Below, piece after piece: positions 13,058 to 16,726 of a stretch of 64,000 nt of DNA. The DNA is from Candidatus Nitrosotalea sp. TS. Its GTDB lineage: Archaea; Thermoproteota; Nitrososphaeria; Nitrososphaerales; Nitrosopumilaceae. The stretch spans positions 62,001 to 126,000 of the forward strand of contig NZ_RCMB01000002.1 in the NCBI RefSeq assembly GCF_011319465.1. Direction: 5' to 3'. Each line of letters starts with the position of its first letter. The first letter of the stretch is position 1. Made by a program: the position numbers and the translations under genes. The notes below the pieces were generated by a model. It made no database searches, was not told where the DNA came from, and saw only the letters and a list, made by a program, of their open reading frames with translations.

Positions 13058-14229
13058 CTAGCTCAGTGCTATTTTTGAATCGACCTTGATGTGTATCTTC
13101 TCACCTGTATGCTGGTGATCATTGTAAATCATCTTGGTCTTGATTCCTTTTTTGTTCAGGTATCCTTCAAGCAAAAGCGCCCAAGGGATAGAGTGTCCGC
13201 TGTTCATCTTGGATTCTATTACAAAGTGATTGCCCTGCGACTCGTATTTGAGATGCCCGAACATGTGATATCCAACGTAGAGTCAACAAGTGAAATTATT
13301 TCGTCAAGTGTCTTTGATTGTATGTCAAGCCCATTTTTCTCCAAAAATACCATGAGGTCAATTCCCTTGCCTTTTGAGTTTAGCATTGAATTTAACACAA
13401 ATCCAAGTCCATTTTCATTTACCAGTTGCACTACCTTGAGGGTCTCTTGTGCGTCTGACTTGGTCATATCTGACAAATTGTTGACCTTGATGCCGCTCTT
13501 CCAGGCATGCTCAAATGTCTTGACCTGGTTTGTACCAAGCACATCTGTTGACAGAAATATCGCGCCCTTGCCATTGCTGCTGTTAATCATTAGAATCTCA
13601 GAATCGTCAAAAGTAATCATGTTTTGGGAAACCTCTGCAGTCTTGATCTTGATCTCAGACGGCAGGTTGTGGAATGTTTCTGTTCCTACAAGATTTGACG
13701 GAATTATTATCTTGACATCAATATTTCTTCTCAGAGCTACCAAGAGCTCATCTTTGCACTGGGAGATGAGGCCGAGTCCCCATGAATCAATTATTGCATG
13801 AATCGATGTCTTGGAGCCTTCTATCATTGTCTGGAATTGTTTGAATACGTAATTCTGGGCAAGGTGGAAATATCTTTTTTCTTCTGAGCCTCTTGCCTTT
13901 TTACTGTCCTCGCTGAGTCGCTTTAGTTTGGTAGTAAGACTGTTCATTGCGTTGACACGGTTTATCTGCTCCTGTATGATTTCATCAAATGCGTCTTCTG
14001 GTGCAATGGCCGTGCACATTATCGGCTTGCTTTTTGATATTATTGCAATCTTCTTTTTTTCAAGTTTTAGTAATGTAGGATATACCTTGGTTCTTGGCAG
14101 GTCGGAATAATATGCAAGCTCGCTTGCGGAAATCGTGCCTTTTGTAATCAACGTGACATAGGCCTGTGCTTCGTATTTGCTCAGACCAAACTCTTCCAAG
14201 CTTACTGCTAAATCCTGTCCCTTGACCAT
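13058..14229 (-). CDS. TrmB-family regulator with C-terminal extension (frameshifted)
   Basis: N-terminal TrmB winged helix (LSKYEAQAYVTLITKG, SASELAYYSDLPRTKVYPTL), then a coiled-coil linker and a phospholipase-D-like/TrmB regulatory domain (SIHAIIDSWGLGLISQC, VKIIIPSNLVG, ILMINSSNGKGAIFLSTD). A frame change near 13262 hides the end, which continues HMFGHLKYESQGNHFVIES, WALLLEGYLNKKGIKTKM, IHIKVDSKIALS to 13058. About 390 aa in total. TrmB proteins sense sugars or other small molecules in other archaea. It is divergent from the Cdv division operon across about 150 bp, so it may control itself, that operon, or both. Confidence 0.88.
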
Positions 14230-14352: not shown

Positions 14353-14368
14353 TTTTGATATATCAAAA
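14353..14368 (+). promoter_or_regulatory. Palindromic TATA promoter of the Cdv operon
   Basis: TTTTGATATATCAAAA is a perfect 16-bp palindrome. Its GATATATC core lies 24-31 nt before the ATG at 14388, the TATA position expected for a leaderless transcript starting at the ATG. A palindromic TATA can be read both ways or can bind a dimeric repressor, so it may serve both this operon and the divergent TrmB gene. Confidence 0.55.
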
Positions 14369-14387
14369 TCCTACCTTGTAATTGAAA

Positions 14388-14966
14388 ATGACAACTCAAT
14401 CAAAATGGGTAATAGAAGATGAGACTAAAAATCAGGTTGTCCGTGCAAGTACAATCAAACCAAGACTGGACTATGCAACAGAGACAGTCGATGGTATCCT
14501 TGAAGTCCTGGTACAAAAAAGGCGCGACTTGAACGAGTCAAACGTGTCACTATACAGAAGGTCTGATGGCACTGCAGAATCGCTCAAAGCACTTGAAAGC
14601 GAAGTGCGGCGCGAGCTTGAAATCTCATATGCCGTAGAGTCGCTAAGGCAGGTAAGGCGAAGCCTTGACTCCATTGCCGGCATGGGAAATGTTCCTGCAG
14701 GTCTTGCACCTACCATATCTCTTGTAAGAATAGTCAGGTCAAGAATGCTCTCCTTGCTGCCTGCAACTGATTTTGAGCTTGGCGAGCTATCCCTTGTCCT
14801 GTCTGGGGTCATAATAGATGCGGCGCACCTTGCAAGCGCCTGTCTTGACTTTGAGAAGGCAAATGAGGAATCAAGAAGGCTGCTAGATGAAGCTAAATTG
14901 ATTGCCGACTCTAAAATATACAAGCAGTTCCCTAATCTAGATTTCCTGCAAGGCCTCTCATGTTGA
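14388..14966 (+). CDS. cdvB: ESCRT-III-like cell-division protein (CdvB family)
   Basis: 192 aa from ATG 14388 (MTTQSKWVIEDETKNQV); a TTG 6 nt earlier is possible. It has the ESCRT-III core: a basic first helix (STIKPRLDYATETVDGILEV, then LVQKRRDLNES), a second helix (AVESLRQVRRSLDSIAGM), the hydrophobic LAPTISLVRIVRSRMLSLLP segment and an acidic later helix (CLDFEKANEESRRLLDEAK). ESCRT-III polymers constrict the membrane in archaeal division. It ends soon after the core (FPNLDFLQGLSC) and shows no winged-helix or proline-rich MIM tail. Its stop overlaps the next start by 7 nt, and CdvC is two genes downstream. Confidence 0.88.
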   Translation: MTTQSKWVIEDETKNQVVRASTIKPRLDYATETVDGILEVLVQKRRDLNESNVSLYRRSDGTAESLKALESEVRRELEISYAVESLRQVRRSLDSIAGMGNVPAGLAPTISLVRIVRSRMLSLLPATDFELGELSLVLSGVIIDAAHLASACLDFEKANEESRRLLDEAKLIADSKIYKQFPNLDFLQGLSC

Positions 14967-15529
14967 ATTTTTCAGGAGATGGCACAGAGCAGGATCTATC
15001 TCATCCTCTTTTTAGAATAAAGACGCTATCGTCAAAGATCGAGCAAAAAATTGCACAAAAAGACAAGGGAGATGATGGTTTTATTGATACGCTCTCAGTT
15101 GAGGAATTAAAGGACCTGCGACAGGTGATTCTTGCATCTGAATACCTGCTTACAAAATATCAGGATAAAAAAGACCTCAAGGTCTTCCTCGAGGAGTTTA
15201 TTGGAATAATCATGCATGCCACAAACTCTGTCAACGGATTGAGGGACGAACTAGAAGACTTGGTAATATCCGCAGAGGTCGCCCTGCAGCAGATTCACAC
15301 GCTGCACGATGATGTGACCCAGACTTTGACCCTTGGACGGGGGTCTCAAACAAAACTTGATGACTTTAGGCTGTCCCGCGCATCTACAATCCCATTGCTA
15401 AGAGAGCCTGTTGCCTCGCCTGCTATTGAGGCGCCTGCTGTAACACAGCCAAGTTCAATTAATTTAACAAATCCTACTAGACGAGTTCACACCAGTGATT
15501 ACCTAACAAGAACCGAAGTGGAGATTTAG
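14960..15529 (+). CDS. Helical Cdv-operon protein of unknown role
   Basis: 189 aa. Translationally coupled to the ESCRT-III gene (7-nt overlap) and 11 nt before cdvC. Almost all helix with heptad character (LFRIKTLSSKIEQKIAQK, LEEFIGIIMHATNSVNGLRD, LEDLVISAEVALQQIHTLHD), then a Thr/Ser linker and a proline-rich stretch (IPLLREPVASP, IEAPAVTQP) ending in a charged tail (SDYLTRTEVEI). It has no PRC-barrel, so it is not CdvA. The proline-rich stretch resembles MIM2 peptides that bind MIT domains, and the next gene encodes an MIT ATPase. I infer an adaptor between the ESCRT-III polymer and CdvC. It could also be a very divergent ESCRT-III protein. Confidence 0.75.
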   Translation: MLNFSGDGTEQDLSHPLFRIKTLSSKIEQKIAQKDKGDDGFIDTLSVEELKDLRQVILASEYLLTKYQDKKDLKVFLEEFIGIIMHATNSVNGLRDELEDLVISAEVALQQIHTLHDDVTQTLTLGRGSQTKLDDFRLSRASTIPLLREPVASPAIEAPAVTQPSSINLTNPTRRVHTSDYLTRTEVEI

Positions 15530-15540
15530 TTGATAATATT

Positions 15541-16726
15541 ATGAGCCTAGCCCCGCAAGAATTAGAAAATAGTGCAAGTAGATTTGCTGCGGAAGCCATA
15601 AAGCTTGACTCTCAAGGAGCACGCGGCATGGCAATATCTAACTATCAGAGGGCAATCGAATCTCTAACAAAACTAATCCATCTATATCCTGAAAACAAAC
15701 TAAACAGAGTATATCAGGAACGTGTTGCCGCATATCAGAACCGTATCAAGGCACTGCAACTGAATAACGTGGAAGTAGAGCCGGCAGTTGATCCAAAAGC
15801 AACCCCTGAAGAGCAGAAGCAGTCTCTGGCAAAAAATGAACTTGACTCGCTGATAATGAAGGAAAAGCCAAACGTCAGCTGGGCCGAAGTAATTGGCCTC
15901 GATGATGCAAAAAACGCACTCCGAGAATCTATTGTTTATCCTGCCAAGCGTCCAGACCTGTTTCCACTTGGTTGGCCCAGAGGAATTTTGCTTTATGGTC
16001 CTCCGGGATGTGGCAAGACCGTACTTGCGGCAGCTACTGCAAGCGAGATTGACGGATATTTCATTAATGTAGATGCGGCATCCATGATGAGCAAATGGTT
16101 GGGTGAGGCAGAAAAAAATGTCTCAAAATTATTTACCATGGCAAGAGGAATGGCTGAAAAAGAGGGATTGCCAGTAATATTGTTCATAGATGAAGTGGAT
16201 TCACTTCTTGGAAACCGCAACAGCGAGATAGGCGGAGAGATTAGAGTCAAAAACCAATTCTTGACCGAGATGGACGGCATCAACGGAAAAGGAAAAGATC
16301 TCAAACTCTATGTCATAGGGGCAACCAACAAACCCTGGAGTCTTGACTGGCCATTTCTTAGACGATTCACAAAGAGAGTCTATGTATCACTTCCGACACT
16401 AGAGGCGCGAGTCAACCTCTTTGAGCTATATACTGCACCGCTTCAAAAGGAGGAAAAGGCAAAACCTGCCGAGCTTGCAAAACTTGCAGACGGATACAGC
16501 GCAAGTGACATCAAAGACATTTGCCAGTCTGCACAGCTAATGGTTGTAAACGATTTGTTTCATTCGCCCGCATTTCAGGATCCCTGTAGTTGGAGAATCC
16601 CCGCCACAGCCACGTCAGATTACCATGTCTGACTTTAAAGAAATCATAACAAGACGAAAGCCAAGTGTAAGCATGGAAATGATTCGCGCCTATTACAAGT
16701 GGAGCGACCAGTTCAAGGCACTGTAG
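15541..16726 (+). CDS. cdvC: CdvC, Vps4-type AAA ATPase (3' frameshift)
   Basis: Disassembles ESCRT-III filaments during division. The MIT three-helix domain is at about 5-75 ([20 protein letters not shown]). The AAA core has Walker A GPPGCGKT at 153-160, Walker [10 protein letters not shown] at 212-220, the second region of homology IGATNKPW and the arginine-finger region [12 protein letters not shown] frame change near 16590 hides the end. The continuing frame reads [17 protein letters not shown] then [15 protein letters not shown] with stop at 16726, the conserved Vps4 C-terminal helix. About 395 aa. Last gene of the three-gene division operon. Confidence 0.94.

Follow-up and report, generated by a model that had tools for sequence, protein, structure and literature searches.

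The described systems closest to the protein considered here are components of the archaeal Cdv division system. Thaumarchaea are said, in the available portions of three reports, to be without winged-helix CdvB (PMC5797428, PMC8970359, PMC10936438). CdvB1/B2 (NF041005) belongs to the same superfamily as the protein studied here and is the family of its upstream neighbour and of other CdvB paralogs. CdvB3 (NF041009) is described as a Snf7-only ESCRT-III class in the part of PMC8970359 available, and CdvA (PF18822) is a helical Cdv component. A coiled-coil protein encoded upstream of thaumarchaeal cdvC, arCOG08707, was reported in mBio in 2024 and, in the available portion of that report, termed not similar to any known protein (PMC10936438). 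The middle gene of the operon analysed here, g2, was equated with arCOG08707 by position and description; its proposal as a new component of archaeal division in the initial annotation was therefore forestalled by a protein already reported at this place (PMC10936438, available in part). What seems to be new here is the identity of g2 as a CdvB relative, instead of a brand-new bridge protein: a chain of sequence similarities, the operon slot and trees tie g2 to winged-helix CdvB. A conserved C-terminal N-[LF]-T...Y motif of g2 is not mentioned for arCOG08707 in the available portion of PMC10936438.

The operon lies on the forward strand of the window, the 64,000-nucleotide stretch of Candidatus Nitrosotalea sp. 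TS DNA that was analysed. Gene 1 (14388..14966, ATG at 14388 and stop at 14966, 192 aa) encodes a CdvB-type ESCRT-III protein of the first operon slot whose MIM2 core is lost, gene 2 (14960..15529, 189 aa) encodes g2, probably a divergent ESCRT-III protein, without a winged helix, and gene 3 (15541..16726) encodes CdvC/Vps4. The three-gene Cdv operon of the initial annotation was confirmed, with gene order kept across the window's g2 family, and its 7-nt overlap of gene 1 with g2 (14960-14966) and 11-nt gap between g2 and gene 3 (15530-15540) are exact; the limits it set are 14353, 35 nt upstream of gene 1's likely ATG, and 16726, the stop of gene 3's C-terminus in another frame. Gene 1 was classified by NCBIfam, profile comparison and tree: it matched the models for CdvB1/B2 (NF041005, E 1.1e-15) and CdvB (NF041008, E 2.9e-6), both under the curated cut-off, and, in profile comparison, the CdvB proteins that fill the first slot in 9 amoA-less genomes (98.9%, E 3.1e-17). 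No Pfam family was found at E<=1. Gene 3 matched the CdvC model NF041006 (E 1.3e-137) and is the MIT-domain ATPase that had been proposed, with an MIT domain at 15571..15756 (PF04212, residues 11-72, E 2.2e-7) and an AAA domain (E 2.6e-35).

Conservation of this arrangement was followed in 110 fetched loci carrying g2, 30 taken from genomes and 80 from named contigs, which come partly from the same organisms; loci L005-L034 and L035-L114 overlap partly in organisms, and distinct sequences were therefore counted where stated. CdvC was present in 106 of the 110, far beyond chance. The co-occurrence on which the initial annotation depended is supported together with its operon; the novelty, the MIM2-like tail and the missing-link role that it ascribed to g2 are not supported. 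At the four loci without CdvC (L016, L071, L097, L102) the stretch ends in or just past g2. CdvC adjoins g2 at every family locus whose stretch includes CdvC, whether gene 1 is lost or not, with a median gap of 10 nt (range -4 to 45, n=105). Gene-1 matches lay -13 to 14 nt from g2 in 103 cases and 1,593 nt away in L094. In genus g12 gene 1 is lost and g2 still adjoins CdvC; conservation of g2 beside CdvC is thus independent of bridging gene 1 to CdvC. The divergent TrmB-family regulator upstream (PF01978, E 2.2e-15; 13219..14229, reverse strand) is a conserved operon neighbour: 104/110 g2-family loci have it, always on the opposite strand, as do 23 of 30 loci outside the family, each time opposite to cdvC.

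Searches with the window's g2 returned no NCBIfam family at E<=1, no PDB sequence at E<=10 and a best Pfam match of E 0.12, in keeping with the earlier remark that the middle protein is unrecognised. An AF2 model (pTM 0.35) predicts helices at residues 14-32 and 47-125, which together with profile alignment delimit a helical, ESCRT-III-like core of about residues 12-125 (14993..15334); Foldseek comparison of the model with the PDB gave no significant match (best E 0.68), with Snf7 cores (Snf7, CHMP2A-CHMP3) only at E 4.0 and 5.6. The core is followed by a variable proline-rich linker (15377..15457), shortened or unrelated in other genera and absent from Nitrosopumilus-type g2, and by the C-terminal motif N-[LF]-T...Y (15461..15502), whose residues N168, T170 and Y181 are invariant across 79 alignment rows. 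N-[LF]-T occurs in 94/94 distinct complete family proteins and the spaced Y as well in 90 of them (L097 and L102, with cut C-termini, excluded); the motif is missing from Nitrososphaera-type g2. Length is 150-192 aa within the window's family and 171-197 aa in six g2 proteins from outside it. A likeness of the tail to the CdvA C-terminus (S-D-[YW]-L), noticed by eye, was dropped as it is not kept across the family.

The helical core of g2 was linked to CdvB by homology through intermediates from other ammonia-oxidiser families, namely the g2 proteins of genomes G303 and G130 and the Nitrososphaera-type g2. A middle-slot CdvB profile was built from 13 proteins of genomes without archaeal amoA, 10 of them with a winged-helix-like end. 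It gave 57 bits (E 9e-17) to the g2 of G303, 30 bits to that of G130 and 27 and 25 bits to the Nitrososphaera-type g2 of G274 and G275, compared with 12.7 bits for the best shuffled decoy, 10.8 for the best reversed decoy and 5.5 for CdvA; two of the six g2 outside the window's family were near or at decoy level (G282, 16 bits; G255, 11 bits). CdvB model NF041008 was the best NCBIfam match of the g2 of G303 (E 2.3e-6, collinear) and of G130 (E 5.5e-4), no CdvB was named by NCBIfam for those of G274, G275 and G282, and Pfam Snf7 matched none of five intermediates tried. Against PDB sequences, the sole match of the G303 protein at E<=10 was CdvB 9s9j (E 3.8e-4, residues 27-139 on 30-142). The chain continues from a profile of four Nitrososphaera-type g2, which gave 83 bits to G303 g2 and a maximum of 47 bits to window-family g2, with 108/108 of these listed at E<=5; its scores peaked at 25 bits for CdvB and at 10.1 bits for reversed sequences. 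Profile-profile comparison by hhalign likewise joined the family core to Nitrososphaera-type g2 (96.5%, E 8.6e-10) and the latter to middle-slot CdvB (94%, E 9.4e-8). Direct similarity of window-family g2 to CdvB was not significant, either in hhalign (3.6%, E 0.012, with CdvA no worse at 2.4%, E 0.02) or with the middle-slot profile (at most 13.5 bits, decoy level); the link is therefore transitive.

In lineages keeping the operon the middle protein occupies the same slot, flanked by a CdvB1-type gene on one side and by CdvC on the other, and in relatives without archaeal amoA this slot is mostly filled by CdvB with a winged-helix-like end. G303 g2, searched against 151 genomes of the phylum, had a match in 85; among the best 12 loci, 11 were read; the CdvB profile identified all of these 11 as ESCRT-III, and a winged-helix-like end was seen by eye in 9. 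NF041008 reaches its last positions, winged helix included, in two of four middle CdvB tried (G080, G098), and three genomes without amoA also have a middle protein without evident winged helix (G062 and G063 of f16, G068 of f18). A search of the PDB with the winged-helix profile alone gave nothing (best E 0.51); the whole winged-helix CdvB of G081 matched, over its C-terminus, 4wcg (E 0.003) and 4hob (E 0.007), which we take to be Z-alpha winged helices. In two trees of 52 and 62 rows the class's middle-slot proteins fell together on one side of a branch, with support of 96/94 and 96/90, respectively. These trees, whose branches are long, hold six and four g2 from outside the window's family, g2 of the family itself being too diverged to include; the first also holds four window-family gene-1 proteins and the second none, and the middle proteins of G068, G062, G063, G130 and G255 were left out of the second on account of their long branches.

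Taken together, g2 is probably a highly diverged ESCRT-III protein (Snf7/CdvB) that most likely descends, in worn-down form, from the winged-helix CdvB filling the same slot in related archaea. Descent is supported by slot and by the tree grouping of g2 from outside the window's family, with other placements not rejected, and the architecture of g2 is not that of winged-helix CdvB: g2 intermediates are collinear with the ESCRT-III core of CdvB and share its neighbourhood with CdvC, but g2 has no MIM2, a seemingly shortened alpha1, and no winged helix in any sequence read, its alignment lacking a winged-helix-like end and its tail being predicted disordered. The winged helix would have been lost early within the ammonia oxidisers, with the shortened alpha1 and the long helices after it retained. 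The protein is probably still an ESCRT-III-like partner within the division ring, and would be co-expressed with, and join or cap, the CdvB polymer that CdvC is predicted to remodel; in the window's family, the flexible tail with its conserved peptide is probably a docking site for a division partner, and the peptide could serve as bait to fish for that partner. If g2 is such a relic, the gene was reduced rather than lost in Thaumarchaea, and arCOG08707 gains an identity testable by polymerisation and structure. The natural series from winged-helix CdvB through intermediates to a minimal relic also asks which ESCRT-III parts division can spare. Candidate relocated g2 genes in G257, G259, G260 and G261 were rejected, the matches being other CdvB with LPEVP; in G293 and G297 the search gave no match.

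It is also conceivable, if rather unlikely, that g2 bridges ESCRT-III and CdvC, its tail docking on the MIT domain by a different motif in place of the MIM2 lost from gene 1. Gene 1 had been described as having no MIM tail, which is literally correct for the canonical core, found at the end of 0/85 distinct family proteins (three pattern matches sit at residues 19-100) and near the end of 13/15 first-slot CdvB outside the family; the site nonetheless persists as a conserved degenerate tail (KQFPNLDF, 14922..14945), with [KR][QR][YF]Px[LVI][DNE] at the end of 81 of the 85 (copies no longer than 170 aa, L013, L067, L069, L085, L091 and L105, excluded). Such docking would fit the tail motif, which is present in family g2 and missing from those of Nitrososphaera type, and the unbroken adjacency of g2 to CdvC even where gene 1 is gone. 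However, loss of MIM2 and gain of the tail form a single coincident change and provide no independent correlation. A canonical MIM is not a family feature of g2: strict MIM1 was found in 0/96 distinct family proteins, a looser MIM1 pattern in 3/96 (at residue 24) and the MIM2 core in 4/96, and no MIM2 core lies beyond residue 100 in the six g2 outside the family. The proline stretch initially read as MIM2-like falls in the variable linker. Nor is a role of g2 as the missing link to CdvC supported, since the looser pattern finds a MIM2 core in 18 of 19 other CdvB paralogs (8 further paralog matches being left out), giving CdvC other possible docking sites. The idea that CdvC has no docking site elsewhere is thereby rejected, less firmly with the stricter published form (charged middle residue), which only 10/19 fit, the paralog of the window genome itself (FPSVP) being outside these 10. 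In a g2-MIT read-through fold (single-chain AF2, run without a positive control) no docking was seen, and the tail was disordered, with pLDDT <50 at residues 131-177 as in g2 alone. The conserved tail of g2 may still contact CdvC. A full hand-over appears distinctly doubtful: along the stem branch leading to the window's family, operon CdvB would have lost MIM2 and its degenerate neighbour g2 would have acquired N-[LF]-T...Y as an MIT-interacting motif of a new type. Were it true, a relic ESCRT-III protein would have turned recruiter of a Vps4-type ATPase.

That g2 instead arose as a copy of another CdvB, of the first-slot or CdvB3-like kind, and then diverged is unlikely. AU tests did not reject grouping of g2 with first-slot or other CdvB (p-AU 0.076 for the first tree, 0.087 for the second), leaving the separation of the tree-included g2 from CdvB1/B2 with an unrejected alternative, and the Nitrososphaera-type profile scored first-slot (24.8 bits) and middle-slot CdvB (23.4 bits) about equally. 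Against this, the first-slot profile gave G303 g2 only 27 bits compared with 57 for the middle-slot profile, and the slot and the supported branch of both trees argue for the middle protein. CdvB3 shares the Snf7-only class and matched intermediates only, weakly (G303, E 0.053; G130, E 0.0057). A new coiled-coil adaptor of non-ESCRT-III origin that took over the slot of winged-helix CdvB would explain why window-family g2 has no significant direct CdvB match, but is improbable given that the G303 and G130 intermediates match CdvB over decoys and G303 matches other g2. A CdvA-like, steadiness-box hairpin protein is very improbable and was rejected: the hairpin is common to ESCRT-III and CdvA in published structural models (PMC10936438, available in part) and the family core compares with CdvA about as with CdvB, but g2 profiles scored CdvA at 7.5 bits at most, under reversed decoys, and Nitrososphaera-type g2 did not match it in hhalign (0.1%, E 0.43). 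CdvA is encoded elsewhere in the 12 genomes examined.

Gene 3 is open as written from 15541 to 16632 (363 aa), compared with a CdvC frame of 394-427 aa in 101/106 relatives, a set in which truncated frames and that of the window itself are counted. A 44-residue C-terminus is read in another frame up to the stop at 16726; the short frame and the displaced C-terminus point to an apparent frameshift near the end of the gene.

The genome of the window (G000) is 70.9% complete, Nitrosotalea-like and carries archaeal amoA. The three-gene layout described in the initial annotation was recovered with the same genes: gene 1 (14388-14966), an ESCRT-III protein (NCBIfam CdvB1/B2, E 1.1e-15); the middle gene, g2 (14960-15529), for which searches of Pfam, NCBIfam and the PDB found no family; and gene 3, encoding CdvC with MIT and AAA domains, from 15541. 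The CdvC frame stops at 16632 past an aberrant stretch, and the C-terminus is readable to 16726 in another frame. This apparent frameshift close to the end of cdvC (16560-16726) is either real or an assembly error; the frames of relatives are longer and intact. PMC10936438 already names arCOG08707, encoded upstream of cdvC and matching g2 in place and description, among the components characteristic of Thaumarchaeota; it notes a hairpin common to ESCRT-III and CdvA and no similarity to known proteins. A literature search found arCOG08707 named in that work alone, in two versions.

Relatives of g2 outside the window's archaeal family appear to connect it to CdvB. The key intermediate is g2 of genome G303, which scored 57 bits against a profile of middle-slot CdvB (those encoded in the operon place of g2) and 27 against a first-slot profile. 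Its top NCBIfam family was CdvB (E 2.3e-6), its single PDB match was a CdvB (9s9j, E 3.8e-4), and, of its 12 best loci among 151 genomes of the phylum, the 11 that were read all hold an ESCRT-III protein, with a winged-helix-like end in 9/11 as judged by eye. Nitrososphaera-type g2 were made into a profile that left G303 out; it matched G303 g2 at 83 bits and scored as high as 47 bits with the window's family (hhalign 96.5%, E 8.6e-10). Decoys reached 12.7 bits (shuffled), 10.8 (reversed) and 7.5 (CdvA) at most. Applied to whole genomes devoid of g2, the g2 profile A5 had middle-slot CdvB as its top match in two, G083 (E 1.7e-9) and G098 (E 4e-6); G062 gave no match. Because direct comparison of the window's family with middle-slot CdvB is not significant (E 0.012, at most 13.5 bits, with CdvA likewise at E 0.02), the proposed kinship stands on this chain of intermediates together with synteny.

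Of 33 genomes checked for archaeal amoA, 17 lack it; in the 15 of these where the slot was read (G069 and G078 left out), a second CdvB precedes CdvC. This slot CdvB is 270-306 aa long with a winged-helix-like C-terminus in families f2 (G083-G086), f3 (G098), f17 (G064, G066, G067) and f20 (G080, G081), and is similar, as judged by eye, in G082 and G076, the latter with an intervening CdvA-like gene. Of four middle CdvB tried, the curated CdvB model was matched to its end in G080 (260/260) and G098 (259/260) and ended short in G066 and G085. A shorter middle protein with no evident winged helix occurs in f16 (G062, G063; loci L192, L195) and f18 (G068; L188 2964-3536); these may be independent losses of the winged helix. 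Among ammonia oxidisers, the slot holds a g2-type protein in f13 (G303), f10 (G130-G133), f1 and part of f11 (G274, G275, G282, G255); on the stretch read beside CdvC in four other f11 genomes (G259, G260, G293, G297), neither gene 1 nor g2 was found. Winged-helix CdvB and a recognisable CdvA hardly co-occur in the class. Pfam CdvA was detected in 12/12 f1/f11 genomes and 4/4 further f11 genomes; of the other ammonia oxidisers, G303 and G130-G133 gave none (0/5), and the amoA-less genomes gave 1/17 (G076, below cut-off). Thaumarchaeal CdvB is described as being without a winged helix in PMC5797428 and PMC8970359.

Two trees were built, both leaving out g2 of the window's family and both drawing a program warning on long branches: a first of 52 ESCRT-III proteins, in which 13 middle-slot CdvB and 6 g2 share one side of a branch (support 96/94), and a second of 62 rows, which dropped long rows and took in proteins from beyond the class, and in which 4 g2 and 10 winged-helix CdvB of the class again fall on one side (96/90). 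Forcing g2 together with first-slot proteins cost 15.6 log units in the first tree (p-AU 0.076), and forcing it with first-slot and other CdvB cost 8.3 in the second (p-AU 0.087); these placements of g2 away from middle-slot CdvB are thus disfavoured but not rejected. Nine winged-helix-type CdvB from outside the class sit across that branch in the second tree, and a topology holding all middle-slot and outside winged-helix rows together was not rejected (p-AU 0.124). In the first tree, the family's gene 1, represented by 4 rows, clusters with Nitrososphaera-type first-slot CdvB (92/91).

Judged from the chain of sequence matches, the shared slot and the trees, g2 likely descends from ESCRT-III, and we consider it probable that it is a reduced ESCRT-III, the worn-down descendant of winged-helix CdvB. 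Our confidence is slightly lowered because two of six intermediates (G282, 16 bits; G255, 11 bits) score near decoys and Pfam Snf7 matched none of the five intermediates tried. A proposal of g2 as such a relic was not found among titles and the starts of abstracts, a scope short of subscription papers and supplements. As a reduced ESCRT-III partner, g2 would act together with the CdvB polymer, and its tail peptide may serve a partner, CdvC being one candidate.

The initial annotation had instead proposed that g2 may bridge ESCRT-III and CdvC, with a MIM2-like proline-rich stretch near its end; we regard such a bridge as unlikely. A MIM2 core (as quoted in PMC8970359, here relaxed so that Y counts among the hydrophobics and x may be any residue) is found in 4/96 distinct family g2 and strict MIM1 in 0/96, and the proline-rich stretch taken for MIM2 is a linker of Nitrosotalea-type g2 that Nitrosopumilus-type g2 lacks. 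What the final 20-30 residues have instead is N-[LF]-T, followed some 11 positions later by Y (N168, T170 and Y181 do not vary across 79 alignment rows); N-[LF]-T is present in 94/94 distinct complete family g2, with the spaced Y in 90/94. Five fast-evolving lineages (G001, G006, G016, G036, G206) lack this tail, as do Nitrososphaera-type g2, whereas G015 retains it. In an AF2 model of g2 (79 rows; mean pLDDT 67.5, pTM 0.35), residues 14-32 and 47-125 form helices and the tail is disordered; a Foldseek search with the model gave nothing significant. In locus L067, a natural same-frame read-through joins g2 to the MIT domain; folded with 78 rows, a weak test run without a positive control, it gave a well-folded MIT domain and pLDDT below 50 at residues 131-177, so that no docking of the g2 tail on MIT is predicted. 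Among 19 other CdvB paralogs of ammonia oxidisers that were read, the MIM2 core is present in 18/19 by the loose pattern and in only 10/19 in strict form; the low strict count slightly raises the likelihood of a bridge.

Gene 1 had been described as having no MIM tail. The canonical core is indeed missing there (the pattern occurs in 3/85 distinct family proteins, at residues 19-100 and never in the tail), but 81/85 share the tail [KR][QR][YF]Px[LVI][DNE]. Because it sits where relatives carry a MIM2 core (13/15 first-slot CdvB outside the family, e.g. FPDLP, LPGIPDLPMVP), gene 1 keeps a conserved, degenerate MIM2 site and has not undergone simple tail loss. According to PMC5840170, MIT is bound only marginally by CdvB1 and CdvB2 of Sulfolobus acidocaldarius, whose tails have two prolines, which bears on whether the cores of the 19 other paralogs would suffice.

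A single-sequence search found g2 in 48/61 family genomes and a profile search in 164/297 class genomes; a very diverged g2 occupies the slot in some genomes missed by search (G006, 24 bits). Its expected co-occurrence with CdvC was borne out in 106/110 fetched g2 loci, the remaining four stopping within or just past g2; gene 1 is present in 104/110, directly adjacent in 103. Genus g12 has lost gene 1 and kept g2 beside CdvC (L019, L024, L031, L100), and in the 98% complete g12 genome G012 just two other CdvB, and no gene-1-type protein, were found; L017 (genus g9) looks similar. Beside CdvC, g2 was looked for and not found in G019 and G052 (genus g19). Because of this loss of gene 1 and of CdvC loci devoid of g2, g2 is tied more closely to CdvC than to gene 1 and is dispensable in some lineages. 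Two 0.8 Mb genomes, G004 and G026, keep CdvC with neither gene adjoining (L160, L157). In G023 (L216, L174), the g2 frame continues into a long PPPAAEA repeat, giving an open frame of 890 aa.

Five same-genus relatives (G008, G028, G044, G058, G244) carry another full-length CdvC with MIT and AAA domains; transporter and surface-protein-like genes lie nearby and no ESCRT-III gene was seen adjoining. The window's genome shows three near-identical copies, two inverted close to where a contig ends, which may be a duplication made in assembly. The loci of this set are L207 6220-7425 and 10222-11427; L208 6831-8036; L209 7466-8659; L210, L211, L222 and L223.

A divergently placed TrmB-type regulator (13219-14229, minus strand in the window) neighbours cdv genes through most of the class. 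It was found in 104/110 fetched g2 loci, on the opposite strand in 104/104, and in 23/30 other loci, opposite to cdvC in 23/23, including f11 genomes without gene 1 and g2 there (G259, G260, G293). This TrmB-family protein is a candidate transcriptional regulator of division.
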